DNA of 33,813 nt from assembly GCA_030682135.1 (NCBI GenBank), contig JAUXQT010000041.1, positions 1 through 33,813 on the forward strand, given 5' to 3'. Position numbers and translations under genes: made by a program. This document shows positions 2,972-30,962 of this stretch, piece by piece. The first letter of the stretch is position 1; each line of letters starts with the position of its first letter. The stretch is from Nitrospirota bacterium. Lineage in GTDB: Bacteria > Nitrospirota > Nitrospiria > Nitrospirales > Nitrospiraceae. The notes beneath the pieces are model-generated. The model was not told the origin of the DNA, did no database searches, and saw nothing but the letters and a program-made list of their open reading frames with translations.

Positions 2972-5900
2972 TTATTTCATATACCAATATTGCAGCAAGG
3001 CGACGATGCCGTAGAGCGACGACTCGATCACCGGCTGTTGATAGAGGGGCACGAAGGCCCCCTGTTCGTTCTCTTCCACTTCGTCGATCACATACTGGAT
3101 CTGCTTCACGCGGACATCGTGATCCTTGCCGCCTCCCAAAGCCTGGACCATCTGGCGGCTGAGCCCGGCCAGCATAGCTGATTTTGCCTTGCTGGCCGAC
3201 TGGTACAGCAAGTAGGAACCCATCAGCGCCAGCACGACGTTCAACGACCAGGAGAGGATCAACAGAAGAGGATAATTCCAGATATCGAAGTAGTCGTTCC
3301 GCGCGGCGATCATCACCAACAAAGCGATGAAGGGATAACGAATCAAGCGATTCACCACTTCGGTCCGTTGCGCAATGAGATCGACCACAGCCAGGTATTT
3401 CAGCTTTTCAAACTCGGCTTTCTGGGCCTGGCCCAGACCATATTCCCGGAGATATTCTTCTTGAACCTGATCGGACCAGCCACCGGTCGAGGCGGTCACC
3501 CAGCCGATCCACCGCCGGCACAGCATGACCGCATCGAACACCGCCAGATTGAGCAACACCACGAAACCGGCGCTGCTCAGCGCCATGATCCAATCGATGC
3601 CGCAACTCAACCGGCCGCGGCAGGGATGAATCATTTCTTCGTTCAAGACCCAATGCTGCAACGGCCACATGATCGCGAGATAGAGGAGGAACAAGAGAAT
3701 AGTCCTGGTCACACGCTGCGCGGGCTTGCCGGCCTCGCGATACCAGGACCAGGCTTGATCCACCGTCGTCGCCGTCCTGGTCGCAGCCGGATGGTAGACC
3801 CGCTGCAAGTTGGTCCAGAAGGTCCGGAGTGACCATCGGCAGCGGCCCGACTCATCCTGAAATAAAAAATCCTCGCCGATCGCGTCGCTGTTCTTGGCCA
3901 AATCGCGCAGCCCCTTCCCCAGCATGACCAGACAGAGAGTCACGACGAAGAGGCGGAGGAGTTCGCTCGGCCAGACGCTGACCCCGGCGGTCCAGGAGAA
4001 GGGTTCCCCTTCGTCATGATTGGCTAACAGCGCTTCTGCCCCGCCGAAGGCGACGAAGGCTGCGAACGACGCGACCGCGACGAGGGCCGCGACCGTCAGC
4101 AGACGAGGATGTCGCAAGACCCACAGCCAGAGCCGCTCATTGCTCCAGGCGATGACCGTGGCGATCAACAGCGCCACGACCAGCGCCGCCGCGACCGCGG
4201 TGTTATCGAATCCGACTCCCTGTTTCAGGGCTCCCAGTTCATCCGTATGAGCCAGGTCCTGCCTGAGTGGATGGACCGTGCGCAGCCCCTCCTTGTCCAC
4301 CGGGCTCAAGTCCACCGCCCCGTCGCGACTCACTTCAAAGATCCTGGGGTGAGATCCTGCATCGTAGATGCGGTCGTCCGGCGTCAAGTCGACATGGTAC
4401 CCGGTCGTGCAGGGTCCCGTCGTGGACGGCTGATGGCCGGCCGATCCACAAGCGACAAACTGCACCGCTTGCAGGGCGGCTAGGTAGGCCGATGTTTGAT
4501 AGCTGCTCCGGAACGGCGGGACGTCGCGTTGGAGTCCCCCCTCCAATTGCAGTCCGAACGGGGAGGCGATCACCATGTTGCGTGTCGATTTGTATTCGCT
4601 CGAATGGAGGTGGCGCGCATCGAGATCGACGGTAAAAAAGATCGCATGGGGGAACGCGGGCCTGAGGGCCTTGATGATGAGCAACGCGTCGTAGGGGTCC
4701 GTGCCCAGGATGCCGATGGCCCTCGCGCCTTCCCCTTCCTCGTAAATACGCGCGACCAAAGCCCGCACGTAGTCGAGCTGGCTCGTTCCTTCAGGACGGT
4801 CCCGCTGATCGTCTTTCAGGACCGTCTTGTCCGCGCGAGCGATTTTCCCCTTCTCTTCGCCCGGCACTTCCCCATCGAGGCCGCCGAGGTAGCTATAACG
4901 AAAGACGTTGAGCGTGAGCGACTCGTAGTCGGCGGGACGTTGAATCTGCAAATCGATGGCCTGCGACAGGGTCGGACACCATTTCTTGATGTCCACCGGA
5001 ACCTGAATCTGTCTCAAGTCGGCTTCCGGAAACGTCGCCACCTTCGCACAGGCTGCGGCGCGGAACTCGATCGGCAGAGTCCGCCCGTAAAACGAATCCC
5101 ATTCCCCGATGAGGATCACCGCGTCCCAACCGAGACGGACTTGCCGGCGCTCTAATTCCTCAACCAGCGCGCCGAATAGCCGATCGTCCGAGCCGACATC
5201 GTAGACGAGGCGAACGTTGGCAAGCGCCAGCCGGCGGTGAAACTCCTGCTCGCAGACCTCATAGGTCGTACAGGAGGTGCCTTTGCCGCCCTCTGTCTTG
5301 AGTCCGTAGGCGAGCAGGCCCTTCATCGCACTCGTCCAAGGCGAATAGAGCTCGATCGCGCCGTCGGCATTCGGCCAGACGCCGATTCCCTCGTGCGGCT
5401 CGCCATACAGGTCCCCGGCTTCCTGCAAGAAGCTGCGAAATTCCGACGAACTGCGCGGGCCCATGATTTTGAACGTGACTGCCTGTTGTACAGTCGGATT
5501 CAGACGGACGAGTTTTCGCTTATCGTCGGTCAGGAGACATTCATGTTTCTGTTTCGCCTCCTGGCAGACCAAGGATTGGGAAAGAGAGGTCAGGGTCGCC
5601 AAGAACCCCCGATTGAGGGCCTCTTCCGGCAGCCAGACGACCAGAACGGCGGAGGCACGCGAAGCCTCTTCTCCGCAGACGCGTGTCTTTCTCAAGCGAT
5701 ACCATTCATAGGGCAGAGCCTGCAGGGCTCCTTGCGGCTCCCATTCCACGAAGGAGAGATGGCCCTCGTCCTCCGGCACATAACAACCGACACCCAGCGC
5801 AGTGCCAATGGCATAACGATCGCGGATGCGCGACTCGGTGCCTTCGACGTAGGGCCCCCCGCTCGTGGTCACTAGGAGCACGGTGATGCGCTGTCCGCTC

Positions 5901-6202
5901 CTGGTCCGTTCGGCAATGGTCTGTCTCAGCGCGCCAAGCCGTTGCGAGAGGGTGGAGTCCGTTCCGGCAGTCTTGCCGGTCGGTCCCGTTCCGCGCAGGC
6001 CCCGCTGCACGGCTGCCACCGGATCTTCCCACAAGCGCGCACGAACCAACTGTTCGCCGGTCGTCGGGTTCATCTCCAGCCCCGTACCGACCGGCCGAGA
6101 GCTGCGCAGAGGCTCTTTCACCAGCAACACCCCGGCAATGGCCAGCACGAGTGTGAGGGCTCCCGCCACCGCTAGTTTCGAATCGCCGCGTCCTTTAGCC
6201 AT
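2972..6202 (-). CDS. Large membrane protein of unknown function with big extracytoplasmic domain
   Basis: 1076 residues, family not recognised. Hydrophobic segments are visible at about 10-28, 668-686, 700-720, 748-765, 832-852, 872-894, 955-968, 977-1000 and 1057-1072. The first acts as a signal anchor, which leaves residues 30-665 as one large soluble domain, probably periplasmic, followed by a membrane bundle. The soluble part has alternating strand/helix segments such as AVILIGEWDSFYGR (361-374), AIGILGTDPYDALLIIKAL (495-513) and AIFFTVDLDARHLHS (520-534). These look like a Rossmann-type or periplasmic-binding-protein-like fold; this is inference only. It contains several paired cysteines (for example 311/317, 213/222 and 585/598) that could form disulfides. 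It lies between selO and two esterases with short gaps, suggesting a common transcript. Confidence 0.75.
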   Translation of the reverse strand: MAKGRGDSKLAVAGALTLVLAIAGVLLVKEPLRSSRPVGTGLEMNPTTGEQLVRARLWEDPVAAVQRGLRGTGPTGKTAGTDSTLSQRLGALRQTIAERTRSGQRITVLLVTTSGGPYVEGTESRIRDRYAIGTALGVGCYVPEDEGHLSFVEWEPQGALQALPYEWYRLRKTRVCGEEASRASAVLVVWLPEEALNRGFLATLTSLSQSLVCQEAKQKHECLLTDDKRKLVRLNPTVQQAVTFKIMGPRSSSEFRSFLQEAGDLYGEPHEGIGVWPNADGAIELYSPWTSAMKGLLAYGLKTEGGKGTSCTTYEVCEQEFHRRLALANVRLVYDVGSDDRLFGALVEELERRQVRLGWDAVILIGEWDSFYGRTLPIEFRAAACAKVATFPEADLRQIQVPVDIKKWCPTLSQAIDLQIQRPADYESLTLNVFRYSYLGGLDGEVPGEEKGKIARADKTVLKDDQRDRPEGTSQLDYVRALVARIYEEGEGARAIGILGTDPYDALLIIKALRPAFPHAIFFTVDLDARHLHSSEYKSTRNMVIASPFGLQLEGGLQRDVPPFRSSYQTSAYLAALQAVQFVACGSAGHQPSTTGPCTTGYHVDLTPDDRIYDAGSHPRIFEVSRDGAVDLSPVDKEGLRTVHPLRQDLAHTDELGALKQGVGFDNTAVAAALVVALLIATVIAWSNERLWLWVLRHPRLLTVAALVAVASFAAFVAFGGAEALLANHDEGEPFSWTAGVSVWPSELLRLFVVTLCLVMLGKGLRDLAKNSDAIGEDFLFQDESGRCRWSLRTFWTNLQRVYHPAATRTATTVDQAWSWYREAGKPAQRVTRTILLFLLYLAIMWPLQHWVLNEEMIHPCRGRLSCGIDWIMALSSAGFVVLLNLAVFDAVMLCRRWIGWVTASTGGWSDQVQEEYLREYGLGQAQKAEFEKLKYLAVVDLIAQRTEVVNRLIRYPFIALLVMIAARNDYFDIWNYPLLLILSWSLNVVLALMGSYLLYQSASKAKSAMLAGLSRQMVQALGGGKDHDVRVKQIQYVIDEVEENEQGAFVPLYQQPVIESSLYGIVALLQYWYMK

Positions 6203-17721: not shown

Positions 17722-17767
17722 CGAGCGGACATTTTCACGTGGGCACAGATAAGGAAGGAGTGCATAG

Positions 17768-18106
17768 ATGGGCGCGTTGACATTGCATCCGATGAAGGAG
17801 ATCCGTGTGATCGTGGCGGGAGAACACCGGCCGTTTGTGACGGAGTTGCTGGACCGGGTCAACGCGACCGGCTACACGATCATCGGCAATGTGTCGGGCA
17901 AAGGGCATCATGGTGTGCGCGAAGCCCACTTCATGTTCAGCGAGCAGGAAAGCCTCGAGATGATCATGACGGTCGTCCCGGAAGAAAAAGTGGAGCCTAT
18001 CCTGGCGGGACTGCGTCCGCTGTTCGATCGGCATTCCGGGGTCATGTTCGTGACCGACGTATCGGTCAGCCGGCAGGAGTATTTCGGGAAGGCCCCGAAA
18101 AAGTAG
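17768..18106 (+). CDS. PII-like signalling protein linked to DabA
   Basis: 112 residues, last gene of the DAB operon, 46 bases after dabA, with AAGGAAGGAG before its ATG. The ferredoxin-like pattern of PII proteins is visible: IRVIVAGEHRPFVTELLDRV, GYTIIGNVSGKGHHG (T-loop start), LEMIMTVVPEEKVEPIL, and the C-terminal signature HSGVMFVTDVSVSRQEYFG, which is the GxxFVxDV block. The T-loop is short and lacks the usual uridylylated Tyr. PII-like proteins near bicarbonate transporters (SbtB, CPII) bind adenine nucleotides and sometimes bicarbonate. By position this one is probably the carbon/energy sensor of the DAB complex, but the ligand is not known from sequence. Confidence 0.82.
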   Translation: MGALTLHPMKEIRVIVAGEHRPFVTELLDRVNATGYTIIGNVSGKGHHGVREAHFMFSEQESLEMIMTVVPEEKVEPILAGLRPLFDRHSGVMFVTDVSVSRQEYFGKAPKK

Positions 18107-18183
18107 CGCACCGGGCCAGGAACAGGCCGGACCAGGCCCCGAAAACAGGCTGGAAGAACAGACTAGGCCGGTCAGCGCCGCCC

Positions 18184-18212
18184 TTGTCTTCCGGAACCTG
18201 TTTGTCTAAAAT
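18184..18212 (+). promoter_or_regulatory. Promoter of the 89-residue protein gene
   Basis: TTGTCT (18184-18189), a 17-base spacer and TAAAAT (18207-18212) fit sigma-70. Transcription would start near 18219, a leader of about 27 bases. The region just upstream (18147-18205) can fold an imperfect AACAGG/CCTGTT plus GGAAG/CTTCC stem that may end the DAB transcript. Confidence 0.5.
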
Positions 18213-18245
18213 GAGCCCCCTCACGCCGGTGAAGAGGAGTATGGG

Positions 18246-18515
18246 ATGAAGGGTTTACGGTTCGAGCGGATCGGGACAAATCGTTATTATAATGTGGTGT
18301 TCCACATGGGGAGCAGCTACATCCCCGTCAGTGACGAGACCGTGGAAGAACTCAAGGCCCAGAGCCTCCTCCCGGTCGAGCGGTTCCTCGACCTCTTGGT
18401 CGACCGTGTGGGCTACTCCTCCTACCTCAAACATCAAATCCGCACAGAGCTCAAAGCCTCCGGCGATCCGGTGACGCAGATCACCGTTCTTCAAGGCGCC
18501 ATCCGCGAATTGTAA
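18246..18515 (+). CDS. Conserved small protein of unknown function, 89 residues
   Basis: It starts MKGLRFERIGTNRYYNVVFH after GAGGAG at 18234-18239. The composition is that of a folded soluble protein: an N-terminal strand-rich part with YIPVSDETVEELK and a C-terminal helical part with LLPVERFLDLLVDRV and LKHQIRTELKASG. No membrane segment, signal peptide or cysteine is present. I do not recognise the family. Its own promoter candidate lies 34-62 bases upstream, so it is probably separate from the DAB operon. A palindromic repeat begins two bases after its stop codon. Confidence 0.65.
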   Translation: MKGLRFERIGTNRYYNVVFHMGSSYIPVSDETVEELKAQSLLPVERFLDLLVDRVGYSSYLKHQIRTELKASGDPVTQITVLQGAIREL

Positions 18516-18517
18516 TC

Positions 18518-18636
18518 GGTTGCTGAAACAGGCGCCCAACTTCGTTCTCGTCTCGAAAAATCCTCAACGTACCCCAAAGGGTACGCCTCCGGTGTTTTCT
18601 CGCCTGCGGCCTCGTTGACCACCTGTTTGAGCAACC
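18518..18636. repeat. Palindromic intergenic repeat, copy 1
   Basis: A 119-base element bounded by GGTTGCTGAAACAGG and CCTGTTTGAGCAACC, an inverted pair with one mismatch. Its centre is the near-perfect palindrome CGTACCCCAAAGGGTACG. It matches the copy at 20860-20978 with four differences in 119 bases, and the copy at 28265-28412 over the central part. Similarity with copy 2 continues weakly to about 18690 (CGGCCTTGCTGG). It lies between convergent genes, right after a stop codon, so it can serve as a two-way terminator. Confidence 0.85.
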
Positions 18637-18720
18637 GAAAACTTGCCGATTATTCTTCGCGGCCTTGCTGGCGGAAATTTTGAGCAGCCTCTCCCTATGG
18701 CTTGACCATTAACCGATTGG

Positions 18721-19122
18721 TCAGGCCGTAAAGGCCGAAGGAGAGACGGCGATGGTTGGGAACGCCTTGAGAATCTGGCGATCGTTCGTCACCAGCGGCA
18801 CCTCCAGATCCTGGGCAAGGGCGACGAATTCGCAATCGTACGCTGAACAACCGGATCGACTGGCAAGATCCAATACCTGACGCGAGACCACGCTATATTC
18901 GTGTCCGGTCAACCACCGTTCTGCTTCATCGATGATCACGAGCGCCTTTTCAAGTTGAAGCGCATCTGTGCGGACAAGACTGATCAACACATTACGAAAC
19001 TCTGACCGCCACAGTAACGGCGCGGTCCACACTGCATCCTGTTGTAATACCGCTTCGCTCTCTTGTGTTCGTTGGCCTTGGACATAGAGGTAGATCAACA
19101 GATTCGTATCGGCAACGATCAC
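18721..19122 (-). CDS. vapC: VapC-type PIN-domain toxin
   Basis: 133 residues, a metal-dependent ribonuclease of the type II toxin family. The four acidic residues are present: Asp 5 in IVADTNLLIYLY, Glu 41 in LLWRSEFRNVL, Asp 96 in GCSAYDCEFVALA and Asp 114 in LVTNDRQIL. The start is GTG at 19122-19120, overlapping the antitoxin stop as GTGA, the usual coupled arrangement. The RNA target cannot be told. Its 3' end faces the palindromic repeat at 18518. Confidence 0.93.
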   Translation of the reverse strand: MIVADTNLLIYLYVQGQRTQESEAVLQQDAVWTAPLLWRSEFRNVLISLVRTDALQLEKALVIIDEAERWLTGHEYSVVSRQVLDLASRSGCSAYDCEFVALAQDLEVPLVTNDRQILKAFPTIAVSPSAFTA

Positions 19123-19361
19123 GGTCGCCCCGCCACTTTGAGTTCATCAAGGAGGCGATCCGTCAGTCGAACACCTTTGGGAGTTCCGCGGATAGCCCGC
19201 GCCCGCGCAAGCAGGGCGTCGACGTCAAGCGGAACGCTGTGCGTCATCTGCTCAAGATAAGAGATAACTTCGAAGTTCAGACTCCGACGATGAGCCGCAG
19301 CCTGCTGCTTCAGCCGTTTGACCAGGGGTTCCGGAATGTTCTTGATCGTCAAGGTCGCCAT
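19119..19361 (-). CDS. vapB: VapB/FitA-like antitoxin (ribbon-helix-helix)
   Basis: 80 residues. The N-terminus MATLTIKNIPEPLVKRLKQQAA is given here by its core LTIKNIPEPLVKRLK, an Arc-like ribbon-helix-helix DNA-binding strand and helix, followed by HRRSLNFEVISYL, the FitA-type second helix. The C-terminal half would wrap the toxin. AGGAG precedes the ATG at 19361. As in other such pairs, it should repress its own promoter, and a matching inverted repeat is present upstream. Confidence 0.9.
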   Translation of the reverse strand: MATLTIKNIPEPLVKRLKQQAAAHRRSLNFEVISYLEQMTHSVPLDVDALLARARAIRGTPKGVRLTDRLLDELKVAGRP

Positions 19362-19378
19362 AAGAATCTCCTGCTAAA

Positions 19379-19432
19379 AGTATCCATAATGCTACCATAA
19401 TGGATACTATCCGGACAGCCCGTAATGGTCAA
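19379..19432 (-). promoter_or_regulatory. Promoter and operator of the vapBC pair
   Basis: On the minus strand TTGACC (19432-19427), a 17-base spacer and TAGTAT (19409-19404) form the promoter. A perfect inverted repeat AGTATCCAT (19379-19387) / ATGGATACT (19400-19408) with a 12-base gap overlaps the -10 box, well placed for repression by the ribbon-helix-helix antitoxin. Confidence 0.75.
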
Positions 19433-19504
19433 GCCTGAGCGGATCCCGCTTCAGCCCGCGCCTTGAGCATCTCGTCTAGCTAAATAGAGGCAGCCCCATC
19501 GGAC

Positions 19505-19747
19505 TTACTTCGGATTATTGACGTACGTGTAACCAAGCCTTTGCATGCAGTTCTTTTCGATGATCGGTCCCTTGAAGGGTTCATCGCTCTTGTTGCGCTG
19601 CGAGTCCAGATAGGCCGTTTTCTCGCAATGGGCAAAATCGTCCTGGGTTTCCTGCTCGGTTCGCCCGGTCTGCTCCCAATGACCCGAAGGGGTCGTGGCA
19701 CAGCCCGACAACATTCCGATCAGCAGCGCGACATAGACTGACTTCAT
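19505..19747 (-). CDS. Small lipoprotein of unknown function
   Basis: 80 residues from the ATG at 19747, which follows GGAGGAGG; the open frame extends upstream but only this start gives a signal peptide and ribosome site. MKSVYVALLIGMLSGCATT is a lipoprotein signal with lipobox LSGC, so Cys 16 would be lipidated. The mature part has WEQTGRTEQETQDDFAHCEK and ends CMQRLGYTYVNNPK, with two cysteines that may pair. It resembles the many small outer-membrane lipoproteins with a W..Tg.t..e...D...C pattern. It is divergent from the secreted esterase with about 160 bases between them. Confidence 0.82.
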   Translation of the reverse strand: MKSVYVALLIGMLSGCATTPSGHWEQTGRTEQETQDDFAHCEKTAYLDSQRNKSDEPFKGPIIEKNCMQRLGYTYVNNPK

Positions 19748-19906
19748 GATGCCTCCTCCTGTTGCGACCAATGGGAACCTCTGATGAATCATGCGCACTA
19801 CTCTATCCCCACTACGGATACATCGCAACTCCCGGCACCGGCATACCTTGATGCCAGGATGCGAACAGGGCATGATGCGCGTCGGTGGGTGAACCGGGAG
19901 CTGATG

Positions 19907-20857
19907 ATGAAACATTCTCTACTTGTAACGATGTTGCTGGTGGAATTGTTGGGGCAATTCCCCTCGGCATACGGCGGCCCGCTTCGTGACCGGATCGAGG
20001 AGCGGCTCGAAAGCCGGCGCGCTGCTGCACAGGCTGAGGATACAGGCGAGCTAGACCTTGGCGAGCAATCGGCAGCTGAAACGCGCCTCCCCTCGAACGT
20101 GCGGATCGAGCGAGACCTTTCATACGGCACCGATCCCCAGCAACGTCTGGATGTCTACCTGCCAACTCAAGCCAAGGCTGCGCCGATCATCTTCATGGTG
20201 CATGGGGGTGCCTGGATGATCGGGGACAAGGGGGCATCGGCCTTCGTCTCGTACAAGGTCGCGCATTGGCTGCCCAAGGGCTACATCCTCGTGTCGTCGA
20301 ACTACCGCATGTCCCGACAGCCCAACCCCCTTGACCAGGCAGACGACATTGCGCGAGCGCTGGCCTTCGTGCAGTCCAAAGCCCCCTCCTGGGGAGGCGA
20401 CCCGACTCGCGTGCTCTTGCTGGGACATTCCGCCGGAGCCCATCTGGTCTCCCTGCTGGCCGCCGACCCTCGCATCGTGACCAGCAAAGGCGGGACAGCC
20501 TGGCTCGGCACCATCGTACTCGACAGCGCCGCCTTGAACCTCGTCGAGATCATGCAGAGCAAACACAAAGGTTTTTATGATCGCGTCTTCGGAAAAGACC
20601 GAACGTTCTGGACTCAAGCCTCGCCCTACCATCGGCTGACGACGGCCCCGGCACCGATGTTTGTGGTCTGCTCTTCGCACAGTAACGGTTCCTGCCCGCA
20701 AGCACGAACGTTTGCATCCAAGGCAACCGAACTAGGTGGGAAGATCACCGTGCTGCCGGTAGATATGAAGCACGGCGAGCTGAATAAAGAGCTGGGTCTA
20801 CCCAGCGACTACACCACGACGGTCGAAAGTTTCATGCGCACACTTGGCCTGCCTTAA
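19907..20857 (+). CDS. Secreted alpha/beta hydrolase (BD-FAE/carboxylesterase-like)
   Basis: 316 residues. A signal peptide at 1-22 (KHSLLVTMLLVELLGQFPSAYG) suggests export; the start at 19907 is chosen because GGGAG lies 6 bases before it, with ATG 19904 as a near alternative. A charged linker (residues 26-60) precedes the hydrolase domain. MVHGGAWMIGDKG is the HGGxW oxyanion motif, LLLGHSAGAHL gives Ser 175 and DMKHGELN gives His 289. The place where the catalytic Asp is normally found reads CSSHSNGSCPQ, with no acid, so the triad may use another residue. Substrate unknown; related enzymes cleave short esters or formyl groups. Confidence 0.85.
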   Translation: MKHSLLVTMLLVELLGQFPSAYGGPLRDRIEERLESRRAAAQAEDTGELDLGEQSAAETRLPSNVRIERDLSYGTDPQQRLDVYLPTQAKAAPIIFMVHGGAWMIGDKGASAFVSYKVAHWLPKGYILVSSNYRMSRQPNPLDQADDIARALAFVQSKAPSWGGDPTRVLLLGHSAGAHLVSLLAADPRIVTSKGGTAWLGTIVLDSAALNLVEIMQSKHKGFYDRVFGKDRTFWTQASPYHRLTTAPAPMFVVCSSHSNGSCPQARTFASKATELGGKITVLPVDMKHGELNKELGLPSDYTTTVESFMRTLGLP

Positions 20858-20859
20858 TC

Positions 20860-20978
20860 GGTTGCTGAAACAGGCGCCCAACTTCGTTCTCAGCTCGAAA
20901 AATCCTCAACGTACCCCAGAGGGTACGCCTCCGGTATTTTCTCGCCTGCGGCCTCGTTGACCACCTGTTTGAGCAACC
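20860..20978. repeat. Palindromic intergenic repeat, copy 2
   Basis: 119 bases with the same ends as copy 1 and the centre CGTACCCCAGAGGGTACG. It starts two bases after the esterase stop codon, exactly as copy 1 starts two bases after the 89-residue gene. It lies between convergent genes (esterase and fic). Weak similarity continues to about 21035 (CGACCTTGCTGG). Confidence 0.85.
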
Positions 20979-21055
20979 GCGCGCTTTGCCGATTCTTTTT
21001 TCGACCTTGCTGGAGAAAGCTTTCGACAGGTTCGCTATACACTCCTTAATCGGGG

Positions 21056-22396
21056 CTATGCGCTTGCGGCACTTCTCAACCTTTCCATCATTTTGTCGGC
21101 CTGGATAAAGACAAATTCTTTTCCCCGCTTTTCTTTCTTGAGAAACCCTTTTTTGGCAAGTTCGAGCAGGTCATTGCGAGAGGTCTGGTATACAATTCCA
21201 TGAGAAGTTCGGTGGGTATCAAATGTGTAGATCTCCTGAGGATGCTGAATGGCATGAGACAGAAGACTTCTCTGGCGCATGTTTAATCCAGGGTATTTTT
21301 TCAAGGCATGGTTCAACCCTGCCAGTTCTTTCTGCTTTCCTCGGATATAATTTTGTATATCTTCGCAAGCTAGCTTTATTGCTTTTAGGTTATAGAAAAG
21401 GAAGTACGTTAGATCATTCTCGTCGGTTTCTGTATGAACATAGGCGCGAACGTACTGTCCGGGGGATCTTTGTATATATCGTGATATTGCTAGGTATTCA
21501 AAAAGTAGATGCCCGCGAGATAGAAGATACCAATACATTAAAGCTCTTGCGGTTCTTCCATTTCCATCACTGAACGGGTGGTCGTAGGCTAACCAGAAAT
21601 GAAGCATCACAGCTTTTATGACAGGATGAATCCATTTGCGCTGACTATCTTCATTGGCAAATTGGCAAAATGCATGCAATCTTTCTGGAAGAACCTTGAA
21701 GTCAGGGGGTGTATGAACGGTTTCTTCTTTGTAATTCACCACTATTTCATTGTTAGTCCTGAGGCGACCTGAATCTTCTGGATAGTCCAATGTGTCTGCG
21801 GTAATTCGTTGATGAATTTCGATCACGAGCTCTTTTGAGAGACTGACCTTCCTATTCTCTCTGATGAACTGCATGGTTTCCCAATTGTTCAGGATCATCT
21901 GCTCGCTTCTGTCTTTAGGTTTTCGTCCTGTCTGTAGTAATTCCTTGGCTTTCTTGGTTGTGGTTGCGGCACCCTCTAGCTGACTGGAAGCGATGGCTTC
22001 GTCCATTAGCGATCTGATGATGAATTGTTCTTTTCCTGGCAATGGACCTGGATGCTCTGACACGATGTTGCCTCCAGCCCAGACATCGATGTCGTGGAGG
22101 GACCTTTGAAGACTATCTGGTATCCAATACCAAAACGGCGCTCCTACTTTGTCCGTGAACGGAGCTTGCTTAAAGTTCGCTCGTCTTCCAAGCTTTAATA
22201 ACGCCCACGCCTCCTCATGGGTTAATCCATTTGTTATCGGGAAATATCTGAAATGATGCCAATCAGCATAGCGCTCGTTGGCTCTTTGGATCATTTTTTG
22301 AAACTCTGGTTCAGTCCCCAACTCAAAAAGCTTTCGCACACTCTCAGCGCTTTTGAGAGTTTCAGCGTAATTGGGGGGAGTTGCGATGATTGCCAT
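21056..22396 (-). CDS. fic: Fic-domain protein (putative AMP-transferase), class II with C-terminal winged helix
   Basis: 446 residues from the ATG at 22396; a TTG nine bases upstream is in frame but has no ribosome site. The Fic motif HPFSDGNGRTAR is at about 273-284 with all catalytic residues (His 273, Asp/Gly/Asn/Arg). The inhibitory helix motif SSQLEG at 137-142 (Ser 137, Glu 141, Gly 142) lies before the Fic core, which marks a self-inhibited class II protein. The C-terminus (about 370-440) has a winged-helix look: SRNDLLELAKKGFLKKEKRG. It would transfer AMP from ATP to a target protein, perhaps itself. The gene is clearly AT-richer than all neighbours, which suggests recent transfer. 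Confidence 0.93.
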   Translation of the reverse strand: MAIIATPPNYAETLKSAESVRKLFELGTEPEFQKMIQRANERYADWHHFRYFPITNGLTHEEAWALLKLGRRANFKQAPFTDKVGAPFWYWIPDSLQRSLHDIDVWAGGNIVSEHPGPLPGKEQFIIRSLMDEAIASSQLEGAATTTKKAKELLQTGRKPKDRSEQMILNNWETMQFIRENRKVSLSKELVIEIHQRITADTLDYPEDSGRLRTNNEIVVNYKEETVHTPPDFKVLPERLHAFCQFANEDSQRKWIHPVIKAVMLHFWLAYDHPFSDGNGRTARALMYWYLLSRGHLLFEYLAISRYIQRSPGQYVRAYVHTETDENDLTYFLFYNLKAIKLACEDIQNYIRGKQKELAGLNHALKKYPGLNMRQRSLLSHAIQHPQEIYTFDTHRTSHGIVYQTSRNDLLELAKKGFLKKEKRGKEFVFIQADKMMERLRSAASA

Positions 22397-22402
22397 ATTT
22401 TC

Positions 22403-22466
22403 CAAATACTAAAATGTACTAAACATTTATAAATTAGTATTTGATTGAAGTCAACAAATACTAATT
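22403..22466 (-). promoter_or_regulatory. Promoter and operator array of fic
   Basis: On the minus strand TTGACT (22454-22449), a 17-base spacer and TATAAA (22431-22426) give a near-consensus promoter. The 10-mer CAAATACTAA occurs three times: 22403-22412, inverted at 22434-22443, and 22455-22464. The last two belong to a perfect 12-base inverted repeat (22432-22443 / 22455-22466) that brackets the -35 box. The first lies between the -10 box and the start codon. Confidence 0.75.
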
Positions 22467-22744
22467 ATAGTAAAAATAGTACAAAGTAGTAGATCGCAGA
22501 TAAATCCCTTGTACATCAATTTGTTCGACGGGCCACTAAGAGACGCTGAAAAAGATTGATTAGTAAGAGGCGGGCTTCGATTAACTTACCGTAAAGAAAG
22601 TTTTCGAATTTACTGCCGGCATCCTGCGCGAACTCTGATCGGCTGCTGAAAATTCGACCTTCTCACCCGCCCAACCCCCAGCGCGCCAAGACGCGCTGTT
22701 TTCCCAAGCTTCGTTCTCACTCGCGTGCCTCCCTGCGATGCACC
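22467..22744. other. Gene-free stretch with degenerate repeat remnants
   Basis: The first 100 bases continue the AT-rich sequence upstream of fic. From about 22637 the text GGCTGCTGAAAATTCG and, further on, AAGCTTCGTTCTCACTCG resemble the left arm of the palindromic repeats (GGTTGCTGAAACAGG ... AACTTCGTTCTC), with the centre replaced. I read it as a decayed repeat ending at the 3' end of the nuclease-STAND gene. No open frame worth reporting is present. Confidence 0.45.
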
Positions 22745-25700
22745 CTATGCTCTATTTTCGGATACTCTAGCGAGCGCTTCTTCCAGTCGCTTTGCCTCCG
22801 GGACACCCAAACCGACCAGTGCGGCGAGGAGTTGATCCACGTCTGACCCCACCGCCACATCATTCTTGAGTCGAGCCGGCTCAGCTTGGTGAATTTGCCC
22901 AAGCCAAAGGCAGAACCGCCGGCCAATCCCATAATCAACCCAGAACTCCGTGTCCTGAGGATAGCTTCGTATCCACGCTTTAGCCGCCGTGACCATGAAT
23001 GGCAGATGCGTCGATCTTAGAGATACTTCCAGTAAATTGAGTGTCACCAGAGCGAGGAAGAGTGACGGACCGCTCTCGACCAGCTTTTCCAGCACAGGAA
23101 TGAACGGGGGAAGCCGATCAATGCACACGGGAGGCAAGTAGCATCGAGGCGGCTGGCCGATGCCATAGTCGTTGAAAAAGACTACGGCGATAGCCGGCCC
23201 GATATGTGTCTCAATGGAACCACCTCGTTGGCCTCGTAGCCGCTTCCATCCCGCACTTGCCATCAAACGGCCAGCGACCTTGGAGTGAACACCAACCGCG
23301 ACTGACTCCTCAAGTGCTCGATCATTGAAATATGCGATATCACCGCTCCGCAGGAACGACGGAAGGATGTCGTAAAACGACGTGTCAGGCAACGAGCCGA
23401 TCGGATCCAGCGCGAGCTGCTCAATCTCTGGCAACAAAAGCCCTGGTAGGCACCTGGCCAGCAGTTCGAAGTACGCATCGTTCCATTCCCGAGGCGGATT
23501 CTCAACGTCTTCGGTTGGATCCAGCCCGGCCCCATTCGCCTCGGCGGTCCAGCCTGCATACGCTCGAGCCATCTCTCTGAGCCATGGTCGTTTGCCCATG
23601 TCGACGAGGCTCCGGCATTGGACTAGCCACACCGCAGCAGCCTGATGGTCAGCGTATTCCTCAGATCGTGAGCGCCGTTTCACCGGCTCGTCGCGCTCTA
23701 CGCGTCCACCCCGAAGGCGAATATGCCGCCGGAGTCGTGGAGCCTCAATTGGAAAGGCTGGCCAGTCGGGTTCGGAACGATGATCACCCAGCCATGCAAG
23801 TTCGGCCTCCACGGCTTTCTGGACCCGCTTGCGTTGGGGATCGACACGGGCGGCGACTTCTTCCTCGGGGACTCCCCATTTGCGATGGGGCCGAATACAT
23901 GCCGCAAAGGCACACCGTAGCACGGCACGGAGCAATCGCTCGTCGATGGCGGCCAGCGTGGTAAACGCTACACCGAAGCCGTGCGCCGCAGCCGGCTCCT
24001 CGCGTGTGACGACCTGGAGTAGCGACCGGACATCCTCGGTAGCGGCGCGATCTTTTAGAGCGTGAATCATGCCAACGAACGCAATCGCAACCGGATTGAA
24101 CCGAAGTCCTGATCGAAATCGATGGACCGGGTCTTCCTTGGTTCGCAGCGCCTGGGCGAAGAGGCCGTGCGCCCAGGCTTGATGCTTGGCGCGGAGTTCA
24201 GCATCGCCATCGCGCATGACGATCGTCGCCGTGCTCACCACCGCGTGTTCCTGCATCCAATCCTCGTCCTTGTCCTCCTCCGCATCCGCGTTTTTTGGAG
24301 CGGCCGTCACGCGTTGCGCCCACTCCACCGCCGCCGCGGCGAACTGGGCTGATGAGCGGGACGGATCTTCCAGCGCCAGCATGACACCGGCCTGCATGTT
24401 TGCGTCCTCCCACCTACCCTCTGAGGCGTCCTGGAGAGCTGCGAGGTGCTGGCGTTCGGTTTCAGGTGGCACATACTCGTGAGCCGCCCTCTGGGTGCCA
24501 TCGGACAGCGGAAGAGAAACCTCACGCCAGTTGCTGGGGTCAACACGATTAATTGCGTGAACTAACATGAAGGCGGGATCGCGAAAGTTCGATTGATTGT
24601 CTGGAGGACCGAGCCGCTCCGCCGCACGACGTAGAAGAGTATTCAGCGCCTCTCTCAGTTCCTCGGGGCGCCCTACGGCATATTTATTTAGTAGGGCTTC
24701 AAGCGAAGCACGTCTTGAAGGACGTTTCTTGAGGCTGTCTAGGCTGACCACACCAACCGGCTCTTTCTCCAGAGCCCTCAGGCCGAACAAATCCGGGTAC
24801 TCCACATTGTCGCGGAGTTGTCGTTCACGATCCAGAGACAGAAGCTCGGGGCACGCCACAAACGGCACCGCCGCCTCTCGAGACTTCGGCCAATGCGAAA
24901 GTAGGAGATCAACGGCGACTAGGAGAAAAGCCGCCGGAGAGCCGGGAGGACCCAAAACGTCAGCAAGCACCGTTTCGACCGACTCTCCGGTTTCGATCCG
25001 GCGGTGCGCCCAAGCCTCGAGCGCCATCAGAGCCGATGTGACGCAATTGCGGCCGGCGCCCTCACGTGACCACGCATACGATCGCATCCAGGGAAAGACT
25101 CGCTCGCCTTCTGGGAATGCGATGATGATCGAATCAGTGCCGTACTTACGCCCCTTGCTATAGTACGCGATCGCTCGGTCAACCAGCTGCCGGACCAGCG
25201 ACAACCCATTCTGCGGGGCATGGGTAAGAAGCTCAAAGAACGGTCCCTGCGCGGGGGGTGCGGACACGAAATCGAGATCATGATGGGTGAACGGTCCCCT
25301 CATTCCATGATGGTCATCCTTCTCATCTCGATGTTGCTCCGCAATCAGTGCCGCCACGGTGAGCTCTGCGAGTTCGGCAGGAGCAGACTGGGCAAGCGAT
25401 CCGCGGAATTTCAGGATGCTGCGGATAACGTTTTCAGGACGATGATGACGCTGGCTCAGTGATCGCAGGTACTCCCCAGCGAGCTCTGGCGTGCGATGGC
25501 AGAACGCGAGAAAGACGGTCCGAAGGTCGGACTCCAGCGAAGCAGTCCGCTCGCGGTCAAGTTCGCCATTGAATGGTTCCCGTAGATCACGGAAGTGTTC
25601 AACATGGCGGGCAGCCTCAATCTCGGTCAGCCAGCGATAAAGCCAGGGCACTATTAATGGAGTGAGTGGATCGTGTCCTCCCATGCCGATAGACCAAGCA

Positions 25701-27916
25701 GTGTAATAGTCGACCACATCGGGGATGGTTGCCACAGGCACGCTTTGTCCGAGACTGAGGAGCCAGGCAATTAACCGGTACCAAGATGGCCCGCTGGGCA
25801 CGTTGACACTCGGCGGGATTATCGCTGGGTCAACCCCGAGAGCCTCGAAGAACTTCGAAGCTGGCTCAACGTCGACCGCCATCACGAGCCGGATGAGCTC
25901 ACGGAGCATGCTCGCGCGGTTGGCGAGCAGAAGTCCCGAAGCCCGCGTCAGCAACTCGAGGCTGATCTCCGAGCGAACGAGCGCCAGCAATGCCGCCCGG
26001 CGCCACGAACCATGCGTACCCTCGCAGCTAAGACGTTCAACGAGAGATTGCCAGCGCGTGCTATCGACCGCACGCTCAAGAGCCAGGCGCGCGGCGAGCT
26101 CCACGCCCCTCGCCAAGGCCGCCGAGGCGGGGCGGGTGAGAGGCAGGCGCTCGATCATCGTCGGATCGGAATGAAGCAGGTTGCCGATCGCCCATTCGCG
26201 CAGGACATCATGACGGAACGCGACGCGGTCGTTTCGCAAGTCGCGCAGTGTCTCACTCGCAACCAAGGCATTGACCGGCTGTGCTGGGTGATTACTGACG
26301 TCTAGCGGTCCGGCGTGGGAGAGCGCCACTTCCGCTAGAGCCTTAAGCAGCCTGGCCCGGTCTCTGTGGTCACCGTCGAGTTTGCCATCAGCCGTCTGCC
26401 ACCACTGCTCAGCCATGTCGGCCTCGGTGCGCAGGACTATGGCGTACTCTGGCCGAGTCACAAGTCGCGCGAGGCGAAAAAGGTTCCGGGTCACGTCGCG
26501 TGCCGGGTGAGTATCGGCCAGGAGTGGGGCGAGCCTGGGAGCAGCGTGCCGGATCTCGTCAACTTCAGCGGCGCTTAGTTCGTCGATCATAATAGGCTCG
26601 GCGCGGCCCAAGCGGTCGAGCACGTCAGGCGGTAGCCAACTGGGCTCTTCTACACCGAAGTTGCGCCTCGCGGTCACGATCACTGCGAAGCCTGGGATGC
26701 CCGCTGCTTCCCGGACAAGGTCAACAACGGTTCTCCGCTCTTCATCCTCAAAGAAATCCAGGTTATCGACAAAGAGAACCGCTCCGCCGTCGGCCGCAAG
26801 ATCCGTCAGCAGTTCGCGAGCTGTGCCATCGAACCCGAGCACCGCCCGCATTGCGGCCCACCCCCTTGGCGTACTTCGGCCAGGGCTTAGCACAATGACT
26901 TGGGACTCTGTGGCAACCTGTCCAGCGAAGTGCTTCAGCACGCCAGATTTTCCAACACCCGCGTCACCCCGGATCTCAACATAACGACCGTCGTCAAGAG
27001 CAGCGTGGACGGCCGCGACACGCTCATGTCTGGTCAATATCACGTCGCCGACGTGATCGCTGATATCAGCAAGCGCGTTGCGGGAAGCCTCGGCGAGAAT
27101 CACGCGCGCGGATAAGTAGCGCCGGTCGCCCACAAAGCGAAAAGACTGCCCCCTGAGGTCCTCGATCAGACGATCGCGGATGCGGTCCCCGCCACTGGCC
27201 GCGACCTTCAGCGCGAGGTCAACCAAGCTTGTCCAAAGGTTTCCCGCCCGCTGAGTATCGTCAGGGTGGAGAGCACGGACGGCACGTTCTTTTGCGAGCG
27301 CCTCGGATGCGGAGCCTTGGGCAGTGAAGTCAAATACAAGGATCTGGAGTTTGCGCAGGAGCCGCCAAACGGTCTCGTCATCGTCTGATGACTCCGCATC
27401 GCGCAAATGCGATTTGAAGGTGTGCACGAAGGTGCGCATGTCATCATTGGCGAAGCCCGGTCGGTCGATCCCCGCCCTGAAAGTCGCCGAGTCGCCTAAC
27501 TGTCGTGCCCAAGTCAGAACATCCTGATAAGCGCCATCGATCTTTCGGGATGTTCGGGCCGTTGCAATCGCGAGTTCGTAGCGCGTGGTCCAAAAGTCTG
27601 GCCTCCTTGAAGCCTCGACGATCTGACCAACGACTGCGCGAAATACCCGGTCAGTAGACGCAAATGTGATGCTCCGCTTGACCTGAATCTCGAGAACTGC
27701 GGGAGCGCCACGTAGATCATGGGCGTGCACGATCACGTCATCAAGCGGCCGGCCCTCGGCCGCGCGCTGGAATTCGATGCGGTCGATCGTCGTGCCTGGC
27801 AACCCGCGGGGCTCCGTGCCCGTCAACATGGACAGCAGGTAGTGCGCGCCGACCTGACCCTCGAAATGGCTGCCGGCCGGTCCGCTCGACGCAGGATTGG
27901 TTGTGTTCGCCTTCAC
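22745..27916 (-). CDS. Nuclease-STAND NTPase fusion, Avs-like antiphage candidate
   Basis: 1723 residues. Residues about 15-130 look like a PD-(D/E)XK nuclease of the Mrr/Cap4 type: FEGQVGAHYLLSML (Glu 19), LDDVIVH (Asp 60) and VLEIQVKRS (Glu 76, Gln 78, Lys 80). An NTPase domain follows with Walker A GDAGVGKSG (Lys 323) and Walker B AVLFVDNLDFFED (Asp 384), then a winged-helix-like block (FRHDVLREWAIGNLL). About 1100 helical residues make up the C-terminus, the usual place of the target sensor in STAND proteins. The start GTG at 27916 has GGAGG 9 bases upstream; a TTG at 27934 is in frame. Known Avs proteins bind phage terminase or portal and then cut DNA. Neither the target nor defence activity can be shown here. 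Confidence 0.78.
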   Translation of the reverse strand: MKANTTNPASSGPAGSHFEGQVGAHYLLSMLTGTEPRGLPGTTIDRIEFQRAAEGRPLDDVIVHAHDLRGAPAVLEIQVKRSITFASTDRVFRAVVGQIVEASRRPDFWTTRYELAIATARTSRKIDGAYQDVLTWARQLGDSATFRAGIDRPGFANDDMRTFVHTFKSHLRDAESSDDDETVWRLLRKLQILVFDFTAQGSASEALAKERAVRALHPDDTQRAGNLWTSLVDLALKVAASGGDRIRDRLIEDLRGQSFRFVGDRRYLSARVILAEASRNALADISDHVGDVILTRHERVAAVHAALDDGRYVEIRGDAGVGKSGVLKHFAGQVATESQVIVLSPGRSTPRGWAAMRAVLGFDGTARELLTDLAADGGAVLFVDNLDFFEDEERRTVVDLVREAAGIPGFAVIVTARRNFGVEEPSWLPPDVLDRLGRAEPIMIDELSAAEVDEIRHAAPRLAPLLADTHPARDVTRNLFRLARLVTRPEYAIVLRTEADMAEQWWQTADGKLDGDHRDRARLLKALAEVALSHAGPLDVSNHPAQPVNALVASETLRDLRNDRVAFRHDVLREWAIGNLLHSDPTMIERLPLTRPASAALARGVELAARLALERAVDSTRWQSLVERLSCEGTHGSWRRAALLALVRSEISLELLTRASGLLLANRASMLRELIRLVMAVDVEPASKFFEALGVDPAIIPPSVNVPSGPSWYRLIAWLLSLGQSVPVATIPDVVDYYTAWSIGMGGHDPLTPLIVPWLYRWLTEIEAARHVEHFRDLREPFNGELDRERTASLESDLRTVFLAFCHRTPELAGEYLRSLSQRHHRPENVIRSILKFRGSLAQSAPAELAELTVAALIAEQHRDEKDDHHGMRGPFTHHDLDFVSAPPAQGPFFELLTHAPQNGLSLVRQLVDRAIAYYSKGRKYGTDSIIIAFPEGERVFPWMRSYAWSREGAGRNCVTSALMALEAWAHRRIETGESVETVLADVLGPPGSPAAFLLVAVDLLLSHWPKSREAAVPFVACPELLSLDRERQLRDNVEYPDLFGLRALEKEPVGVVSLDSLKKRPSRRASLEALLNKYAVGRPEELREALNTLLRRAAERLGPPDNQSNFRDPAFMLVHAINRVDPSNWREVSLPLSDGTQRAAHEYVPPETERQHLAALQDASEGRWEDANMQAGVMLALEDPSRSSAQFAAAAVEWAQRVTAAPKNADAEEDKDEDWMQEHAVVSTATIVMRDGDAELRAKHQAWAHGLFAQALRTKEDPVHRFRSGLRFNPVAIAFVGMIHALKDRAATEDVRSLLQVVTREEPAAAHGFGVAFTTLAAIDERLLRAVLRCAFAACIRPHRKWGVPEEEVAARVDPQRKRVQKAVEAELAWLGDHRSEPDWPAFPIEAPRLRRHIRLRGGRVERDEPVKRRSRSEEYADHQAAAVWLVQCRSLVDMGKRPWLREMARAYAGWTAEANGAGLDPTEDVENPPREWNDAYFELLARCLPGLLLPEIEQLALDPIGSLPDTSFYDILPSFLRSGDIAYFNDRALEESVAVGVHSKVAGRLMASAGWKRLRGQRGGSIETHIGPAIAVVFFNDYGIGQPPRCYLPPVCIDRLPPFIPVLEKLVESGPSLFLALVTLNLLEVSLRSTHLPFMVTAAKAWIRSYPQDTEFWVDYGIGRRFCLWLGQIHQAEPARLKNDVAVGSDVDQLLAALVGLGVPEAKRLEEALARVSENRA

Positions 27917-28045
27917 CAGTTTTGGCCTCCACAATCACTGGTCGCCCTTGAAGAGTTTTCTCTCAGCGCGCTTCTTCGCGACCAATGCACACGTCGTTGG
28001 ACCTGCAGAAAACTATTGTGCACAAGAGAAACCGGTCCCGCAGAA

Positions 28046-28080
28046 TGCTCAAAAAGGCCGTTCAGCAAGACCGCAGCGAG
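28046..28080. repeat. Partial arm of the palindromic repeat family
   Basis: TGCTCAAAAAGGCCGTTCAG followed by CAAGACCGCAGCGAG matches the left arm of the element at 28265 (TGCTCAAAAAGTTCGTCCAG, CAAGGCCGCAGCGAG) in the same orientation. The rest of that element is absent here. Confidence 0.6.
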
Positions 28081-28126
28081 CAACCATAGATGGTCTCCTT
28101 CCAAGCTTGCTCGTGTACGTTTCCTA

Positions 28127-28219
28127 GGATGGCCCAGCTGAGTCCCCCACTGCGCGCGTCCAACGAGGGCTTTCTCAAGCCGCGCGTTGCGCGAGCACAG
28201 GGGACTCGCCGGGTCATCC
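28127..28219. repeat. Long imperfect palindrome
   Basis: The left arm 28127-28147 (GGATGGCCCAGCTGAGTCCC) pairs with the right arm 28200-28219 (GGGGACTCGCCGGGTCATCC). It includes a perfect GAGTCCCC/GGGGACTC stem. The loop is GC-rich with further CGCG pairing. It has no sequence match to the other repeats apart from position. Confidence 0.55.
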
Positions 28220-28264
28220 CCCTCCGCGCCGCAGCAAGGGGAAGTGCTGCTCCATCTTGCAGGA

Positions 28265-28412
28265 TGCTCAAAAAGTTCGTCCAGCAAGGCCGCAGCGAGT
28301 GAAGACCGGAGGCGTACCCTCAGGGGTACGTTGAGGATCTGAACGACGCGACCTGCCTGCGCGAAGCCGCTTCGGCGAAGGCAGGGAACGAAGCTGGCGG
28401 ACTTTTTCAGCA
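28265..28412. repeat. Palindromic intergenic repeat, copy 3 (inverted orientation)
   Basis: 148 bases with ends TGCTCAAAAAGTTCGTCCAG and CTGGCGGACTTTTTCAGCA. Read on the minus strand, its centre is ATCCTCAACGTACCCC, one base, then GAGGGTACGCCTCCGG, which matches copies 1 and 2 with one difference. The outer arms differ from those copies but keep the same plan. It begins about 10 bases after the stop of the TPR gene. Confidence 0.8.
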
Positions 28413-28421
28413 TTCCTGCTG

Positions 28422-29477: not shown

Positions 29478-30962
29478 TTATCTGGTGAGGGTATCTTCAA
29501 TATCCGGCGAGGTGGCTTGGATGCGATCCCCGAGTGCAGGATACCGCGCTGCGATTTTTTGCTTCATCAGCCAGGCGATGGTCCGGTACGACCAGTGGCC
29601 CTTCACGCCGGATCGGAGCTTCGCGATGTATTCGGCTTCGGCATAGTCCATCTTGAAGAGGCAGCGCACCTTGAAGCCGAACGGAGTGGCGTAGAGCGAA
29701 CCCTCCGCGCTGGTTTTCTTGAGCTGCTCGATGTCCGAACGGACCGCATCCATGGCCTGGCGATATTCGTGATCCAATCCCGCTTGCACGAGCGGCGGCG
29801 GCACTTCATAGCCATGCAGGGTCGTGAAGTTCTGTTGGATCTGCTGACAGCGCCGGTGCCGGTGCATGTCGCGCCAGCCGCCGATGTCCATGAGCACGTC
29901 GAACGTGAAGGCGTAGCCGCTGCGGAATTCTTTGATGAGTTCGTCGTAGGGGCCGCGCGCGCTCATCGCCACGTCGATCGTTTCCTGTTTCTGCTTCTCG
30001 GTCCAGCTACGGACGACCGCGAGGATGTTCCGATAGGGAGCATGCGACACACGGTAGAGCAAGGTGGTGACGATTTCGTCCAGGGGATCGTGGGACTCGA
30101 TGAGTTCGACCGGCTCCTGCGCGCCCCAGGTCGCCGGTTGGTCCAATCCGGTTCCTTGGAGGGCCTCTTTCGCATAACGGGCAAGGTCGAGGTAGACGGA
30201 AGCCTGATAGTCGTTCGCCTTGGCATGGCGCGCGAGCGTGGGCGCCAGCGGTTCTTGTGCGCCGGTCTGGCCGGACAACTCGCCCCACACATTTACGGGG
30301 GACCGCTGACAGGCATCCTTGAGTTCGTCGCCGATCGAACGCAGTTCGGGTAGTTGCGACGACAAGAGTCTGGTGATTTGTTTTTCCAACGTTCTGATGC
30401 TGACGACTTGCCCGACGTTCGTCTTGGCCGCAAGGGGCAGGAGGTACCGGGTCACGTCGAAGGCGCGCGCGGCAATGGTCCGTTGGTAATCGGCTTGCTT
30501 CATCGACTCAGGGCGCGGCTCGCGCTCCGAAATAAACTGGGTCAAGGGTTGATGCAGGAGCCGATAGATCTCGGCAAGGCTGCGGAGAATGCCATGGTAG
30601 GTGCCCTCGGTCTCGGACCCTCGAATGGAATCAGGCACGTACCAGCCGCCGGACGCGAAGTTCTGATAACGACTCGATTTCGCTTGGCCGTCCCACAGAG
30701 GCTCGTCTTCGAGCCGGATCGCGGCGAGTTCGGAGATGTCCTCGAAGCAGATGATGACATGGCCGAGATCGGCGATGGAGGCATGGCCATAGTCGAAATA
30801 GAACTGGTCCCAGAATTTTTCAGAGGAATGGCCATGCACCCAACGGAGACTGTCCTCAATGGTGTCGGGCGAGCGGCTATAACGGGCCAGCGCATAGGCG
30901 GATTTCTCGGGCGGCATAGGCGCCAGCGCGATGACTCGACGGGTTGGTTGATCGATACTCAT
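29478..30962 (-). CDS. Duplicated ThyX-like protein (FAD-dependent thymidylate synthase family)
   Basis: 494 residues, about twice the usual ThyX length of 220-250. Two ThyX-like halves are visible. The first has FYFDYGHASIADLGHVIICF (51-70) and QAKSSRYQNF (93-102); the second has EEFRSGYAF-like EFRSGYAFTFDVLMDIG (345-361) and MHRHRRCQQIQQNF (366-379). The ThyX signature RHRxxSxxxxSxR is divided: the first half keeps SSRY but lost RHR, the second keeps RHR (368-370) but lost the Ser/Arg part. True ThyX makes dTMP from dUMP with FAD and methylene-tetrahydrofolate. Whether this form does is uncertain. CAGGGA precedes the ATG at 30962. Confidence 0.8.
   Translation of the reverse strand: MSIDQPTRRVIALAPMPPEKSAYALARYSRSPDTIEDSLRWVHGHSSEKFWDQFYFDYGHASIADLGHVIICFEDISELAAIRLEDEPLWDGQAKSSRYQNFASGGWYVPDSIRGSETEGTYHGILRSLAEIYRLLHQPLTQFISEREPRPESMKQADYQRTIAARAFDVTRYLLPLAAKTNVGQVVSIRTLEKQITRLLSSQLPELRSIGDELKDACQRSPVNVWGELSGQTGAQEPLAPTLARHAKANDYQASVYLDLARYAKEALQGTGLDQPATWGAQEPVELIESHDPLDEIVTTLLYRVSHAPYRNILAVVRSWTEKQKQETIDVAMSARGPYDELIKEFRSGYAFTFDVLMDIGGWRDMHRHRRCQQIQQNFTTLHGYEVPPPLVQAGLDHEYRQAMDAVRSDIEQLKKTSAEGSLYATPFGFKVRCLFKMDYAEAEYIAKLRSGVKGHWSYRTIAWLMKQKIAARYPALGDRIQATSPDIEDTLTR

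Follow-up and report, generated by a model that had tools for sequence, protein, structure and literature searches.

The window analyzed here, a stretch of 33,813 nt of DNA from a Nitrospirota bacterium, carries a very large gene on its minus strand, and this gene raises the question of whether its product is a phage-sensing receptor and, if so, what kind of sensor occupies its C-terminal part. The STAND/AVAST superfamily is defined by a tripartite build of effector, STAND NTPase, and C-terminal sensor (PMC12931631, PMC10286901), and the predicted structures of the protein display these three parts. A sequence-only reading of the same DNA had proposed an Avs-type nuclease-STAND-sensor fusion with a likely role in phage defence. 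The build is borne out by structure matches of the N-terminal model to Avs3 and Avs4, structure matches of the sensor model to Avs4, and a profile match to EcAvs4 (PDB 8dgf), and the role is supported by Avs4 profile and fold matches. The protein is very likely an Avs4-like defence receptor, and a single-gene, Avs4-like anti-phage STAND receptor, taken as the whole explanation, is held almost as firmly.

STAND core, sensor, and relation to Avs4

The gene is an intact open reading frame (ORF) that runs from a GTG codon to a stop codon, and 12 other near-full-length homologues with 30-69% identity to the 1723-residue protein exclude a chance origin. A mechanical ORF caller starts six codons upstream at TTG 27934 and returns 1729 residues; residue numbers below follow this longer ORF unless given as "of 1723", and subtracting six yields the numbering of the earlier reading. 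Because a GGAGG element precedes the GTG and relatives share this start residue, the GTG start at 27916 and the 1723-residue coordinates are exact, as were the length and motif positions first read from the sequence. A search of phage records gave no match. The gene and the features of its core and sensor are as follows.

22745 to 27916, minus strand: whole gene, divergent Avs4-like nuclease-STAND-sensor protein, 1723 residues, GTG start (ORF and homologues)
27926 to 27930, minus strand: Shine-Dalgarno GGAGG, 9 nt upstream of the GTG (read from the sequence)
26165 to 27127, minus strand: STAND NTPase with P-loop, Walker B, sensor Arg, and winged helix with His-Asp motif, approximately residues 264-584 of 1723 (profile and structure match to 8dgf)
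26945 to 26968, minus strand: Walker A GDAGVGKS, residues 323-330 (1729 numbering); G323, K329, and S330 conserved in 13/13
26756 to 26776, minus strand: Walker B LFVDNLD, residues 387-393 (1729 numbering); D390 and D393 conserved in 13/13
22748 to 26164, minus strand: predicted C-terminal helical solenoid, Avs4-type sensor, approximately 1140 residues (predicted structure compared with 8dgf_A)

Both Walker motifs are present as previously claimed and are kept in all 13 close full-length members, as are sensor Arg423 and the winged-helix pair His575-Asp576 (1729 numbering), a pattern that together with the profile match identifies an Avs4-type STAND NTPase. A profile of these 13 members, which contains no known Avs4, ranks EcAvs4 first among PDB sequences (E 8e-10); with divergent rows left out, the match covers 8dgf 191-674 and runs colinearly through residues 280-769, and residues 850-1048 give a second, weaker match. 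Broadening the profile by six divergent relatives gives E 2.6e-55 over residues 277-1252, a value that is partly circular because the broader profile includes L045, a clear Avs4 core, so that 8e-10 is the clean figure. An AlphaFold2 model of residues 1-640 (from 9 sequences, mean pLDDT 75) aligns with 8dgf 18-546 over residues 22-638 (Z 17.1), and Foldseek places Avs3 and Avs4 at the top of its matches, the comparison that the sequence-only reading had recommended.

The C-terminal part is modelled as an Avs4-type helical solenoid along its whole length. The sensor model, computed without templates from 7 sequences, covers residues 575-1729 (1729 numbering) and, like the N-terminal model, has a pLDDT of 75, the two having a pTM of 0.46-0.48. 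Its 1155 residues match 8dgf_A 472-1587 with 982 residues aligned (VIA Z 20.2, rmsd 6.7), and Foldseek gives E 2.2e-15 and a TM of 0.61 by query against Avs4. The second-ranked structure match, an importin solenoid, reaches Z 9.7. Since the model follows the Avs4 sensor end to end, the idea that this region may define a new sensor class is ruled out. The accompanying remark that the C-terminus has no obvious known motif is true for Pfam, but profiles and structure do match; no housekeeping family matches the region, importin-like solenoids ranking far below Avs4.

The resemblance to Avs4 thus comprises the STAND NTPase, the full-length helical sensor fold, the one-gene organization, and the presence of an N-terminal nuclease. 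The differences lie in a sensor identity to EcAvs4 of only about 10%, in a score of 33.6 bits (E 6.2e-9) against the 1500-bit cut-off of the NCBIfam Avs4 equivalog NF041815, which is therefore missed, and in a nuclease that apparently comes from another sequence family; the nuclease of Avs4 itself has been described as Mrr-like. The PADLOC Avs4 profile scores the protein at 22.5 bits (E 3.6e-6). In L045, Avs4 profiles start at residue 270 and leave the nuclease uncovered, and the fold aligner joins the N-terminal model to 8dgf from residue 22. Avs3 (8dgc) shares a Cap4-type nuclease and a STAND NTPase and heads the Foldseek matches for the N-terminal model, with a VIA Z of 12.9 over 18-495, whereas the sensor model matches Avs4, with 8dgc not among the matches listed. 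A tree of the STAND-plus-sensor core places the 13-member family in its own clade (100/100 support), separate from L045 and L044; both of these have long branches, which makes the position of the two together uncertain. On sequence criteria, the protein is not Avs4 by the NCBIfam equivalog rule but Avs4-like, and by analogy it is expected to function like Avs4; very probably it is a divergent Avs4 relative that broadens the known family and does not found a new one.

EcAvs4 recognizes the phage portal, while Avs3 binds terminase. Because the sensor follows Avs4, the portal is the first guess for the ligand, and by this analogy its chances may be put at about even. Somewhat less probable, though a serious competitor, is the same machine with another trigger, either terminase or a further phage protein, as in other Avs types. 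The low identity to the EcAvs4 sensor would suit such a change, and within the family divergence is greatest in the sensor, with block identities of 0.28-0.53 (mostly below 0.42) compared with 0.40-0.54 for the nuclease and NTPase. It has also been reported that Avs5 relatives of one architecture differ in the phages, and probably in the ligands, to which they respond (PMC12931631). Against another trigger stand the agreement in fold with a portal-binding sensor along the whole length and the absence of the terminase-binding Avs3 from the matches listed for the sensor model.

The predicted N-terminal nuclease as an apparently exchangeable effector

The N-terminal portion of the Avs4-like protein contains the following features.

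27140 to 27916, minus strand: predicted PD-(D/E)XK nuclease of the Cap4/HerA-DUF/HamA/LmuA fold with a helical extension, approximately residues 1-259 of 1723 (model and structure matches)
27737 to 27742, minus strand: Asp-Asp pair, residues 59-60 of 1723, candidate metal ligand, invariant in 24 sequences
27677 to 27685, minus strand: Gln-Val-Lys, residues 78-80 of 1723, putative QxK catalytic motif; Lys invariant and Gln in at least 90% (n = 24)

From residue 21 onward, the nuclease is modelled with a pLDDT of about 74-93. The model displays the alpha-beta-beta-beta-alpha-beta order of the PD-(D/E)XK core (H24-38, E48-55, E67-73, E78-85, H96-109, E118-125), and the D...(E/Q)xK pattern of Cap4-type enzymes is present in the alignment. 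The closest structures are HerA-DUF 9c1m (Z 13.0, 179 residues, 3.7 A), Cap4 6wan (Z 12.9), HamA 8zue (Z 12.8), and LmuA 9hr5 (Z 12.5), so that the N-terminus does match PD-(D/E)XK nucleases in structure, as had been proposed. Cap4, LmuA (Lamassu), HamA (Hachiman), and HerA-DUF share this fold but operate with other sensors and triggers, and a PDB sequence search with the nuclease family detects no credible similarity. Likewise, none of the 24 family members matches a Pfam model at a threshold of 0.01, including the Cap4 model DUF4297. The N-terminus of the PADLOC profile DUF626_VIII matches 13 of the 24 (best 4.9e-25; the window protein at only 0.001), and that of PDC-M54A also contains the module, covering nuclease and STAND in distant relatives. 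DUF626_VIII is, judging from its name, presumably the effector of a type VIII retron. Both PADLOC systems differ from the present protein in their C-terminus, and no reverse transcriptase was seen beside the gene or among the main window ORFs scanned. To our knowledge, no member of this Pfam-less sequence family has been assayed.

Members of this nuclease family also stand in front of an Avs2-like STAND in L046 (NCBIfam Avs2 E 2.5e-19; PADLOC 4.4e-25) and of a core in L045 that is clearly Avs4 (688 bits; 589 bits with PADLOC Avs4 over residues 270-1699), and in five further loci (L019, L047, L048, L049, and L050) the nuclease occurs in proteins of other or unassigned build or without the core. 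Such comparisons show what appears to be a reusable effector, exchangeable between STAND receptors. The nuclease by itself does not indicate the trigger, since it is found in many proteins with a different core or with no core at all. A bolder reading would make the family a separate AVAST clade, in which the Pfam-less Cap4-like nuclease has repeatedly been joined to STAND receptors (Avs4-like, Avs2-like in L046, Avs4 in L045, and possibly retron VIII) and the diverged sensor recognizes a non-portal phage protein; this combination is considered rather unlikely.

Several loci of the nuclease family show other arrangements. In L048 (3813-7368) and L049 (5810-9437), the nuclease forms its own gene (324-340 residues) overlapping a gene of 863-871 residues, a split form that is possibly a two-gene system; the second gene of L048 has no family match in profile searches. 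In L050 (4960-14700), a nuclease-module protein of 1180 residues lies amid ORFs that resemble type I restriction genes by eye. On the Agrobacterium plasmid pAt (L019, 4156-9677), a 561-residue nuclease-module protein is located just 3' of a gene for a trypsin-like protease, and another gene of this type lies close by, a candidate protease-nuclease pairing. This neighbourhood prompted the idea of a protease-activated nuclease, but published protease-nuclease pairs employ MBL-fold nucleases (PMC12799240), so that the idea does not carry over from them.

The four catalytic residues named in the sequence-only reading (Asp60, Glu76, Gln78, and Lys80) correspond to D66, E82, Q84, and K86. Across 24 homologous N-termini, D65, D66, and K86 never vary and Q84 hardly does, whereas E82 is replaced by Q in the close relative L013 and is absent from distant relatives, which makes it the weakest of the four. 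The variation at E82, in a family without a Pfam model, could suit an RNA cutter or nucleic-acid binder that is not a DNase, with growth arrest as an output reached otherwise. Given the conservation of D65/D66, Q84, and K86 and the nearest folds, all nucleases of the Cap4, LmuA, HamA, and HerA-DUF systems, this alternative is improbable, and for a defence receptor DNA cleavage is, by analogy, the likely output.

Genomic site and distribution of relatives

The gene resides between DAB/P-II genes and a TPR gene, at a site comprising window positions 17735-28420 and the syntenic loci L072-L081. In sister genomes this position is taken by a SmaI-type endonuclease together with a methylase and a RhuM protein (L075), by an Mrr nuclease accompanied by a Ymh protein (L074), by an HNH endonuclease (L073), or by a BrnT toxin (L072); L079 has merely 202 bp there, and in L078 a PIN-domain gene adjoins the TPR gene. 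As sister genomes of one genus hold different cargo at this position, the stretch is a variable site, and its content is of defence type. The following elements accompany the gene.

21056 to 22405, minus strand: Fic/DOC protein, a neighbour and independent cargo at the variable site (Pfam Fic E 7e-22)
28262 to 28338, 20902 to 20978, and 28040 to 28080, no strand assigned: dispersed repeat copies (sequence comparison)

The Fic protein is rejected as a partner, for the Fic stretch is present without the STAND gene in one sister genome and does not lie beside the relatives. The copies include an inverted pair (78%), and the repeat has the palindromic core CGGAGGCGTACCCTCNGGGGTACGTTG, of which the genome holds at least 74 copies, with 63 matched pieces of a longer repeat unit. 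The repeats described earlier as decayed on one side of the gene and compound on the other do occur on both sides, but they are genome-wide and not gene-specific, which rules them out as transposon ends or signals of this gene. Elsewhere in the window, a 1076-residue ORF (2972-6202, minus strand) has no Pfam or NCBIfam match and lies in a stretch conserved at the DNA level in L073 and L074, and a 494-residue protein (29478-30962, minus strand) contains two Thy1/ThyX-like stretches at about twice the usual length.

Members of the 13-member clade are found on plasmids, in metagenome-assembled genomes (MAGs), and on one viral contig (L056), where the gene lies beside an integrase-like ORF. Plasmid-borne relatives occur in Neorhizobium, Sinorhizobium, Rhizobium, Pseudomonas, Polymorphobacter, and Phyllobacterium and are annotated as "hypothetical protein" or "ATP-binding protein". 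One of them (L014) adjoins a type I restriction-modification (R-M) system and an abortive-infection gene, and another (L021) a DEAD/DEAH helicase gene; a truncated Cupriavidus copy is preceded by an IS66 transposase, and an avs1c gene lies roughly 8 kb from it. The neighbourhood search suggested earlier does meet defence-type genes, both in L014 and among the R-M, nuclease, and toxin genes of the sister-genome site. Apart from synteny and transposon or integrase genes, no partner gene recurs in the flanking ORFs of 22 loci, in keeping with the one-gene system first supposed. In L002 (15160-16494), a gene that overlaps the end of the Avs4-like gene starts with TLFYSWQSD and looks TIR-like by eye; it is not found beside other relatives.

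The window protein shares 69% identity with a protein from a Syntrophobacteraceae MAG and 63-64% with one from Planctomycetota, compared with 67-68% for proteins of same-family genomes. Because identity across phyla is about as high as within the family, transfer is indicated, and the gene has apparently crossed from one phylum to another, subject to the customary reservation that MAGs may be wrongly binned. The surroundings in the window are mainly metabolic (DAB carbon-uptake genes, SelO, a HisRS-like protein, and esterases), as might befit a housekeeping or regulatory STAND protein with no phage-defence role, but this is highly improbable for a gene that is missing from nearly all relatives of the genus and from the syntenic site of sister genomes, that has apparently spread horizontally, and whose product matches Avs receptors in fold.

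Proposed mechanism and significance

For the preferred Avs4-like receptor, a mechanism may be outlined from its Cap4-like PD-(D/E)XK nuclease, its STAND switch, and the Avs4-type sensor that fills the C-terminus, as seen in sequence and predicted structure. In the Avs literature, the sensor binds a phage protein, after which ATP-driven assembly and DNA cleavage lead to abortive infection (PMC12931631, PMC10286901). By analogy with Avs4, the resting protein would be inactive, its nuclease held by the ATP-driven switch and the helical sensor. During infection, the solenoid would wrap around a conserved phage protein, most likely the portal and possibly terminase or another packaging protein. The ligand-bound protein would then bind ATP through its STAND module and oligomerize, bringing the nuclease domains together, and the clustered nucleases would cut phage and host DNA without sequence choice, so that the infection aborts.

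These findings enlarge the Avs4-like branch well past what standard annotation catches and point to one uncharacterized nuclease family as an apparently exchangeable effector for several immune receptors. They also make it a testable question whether a sensor of the Avs4 fold at about 10% identity still recognizes the portal.
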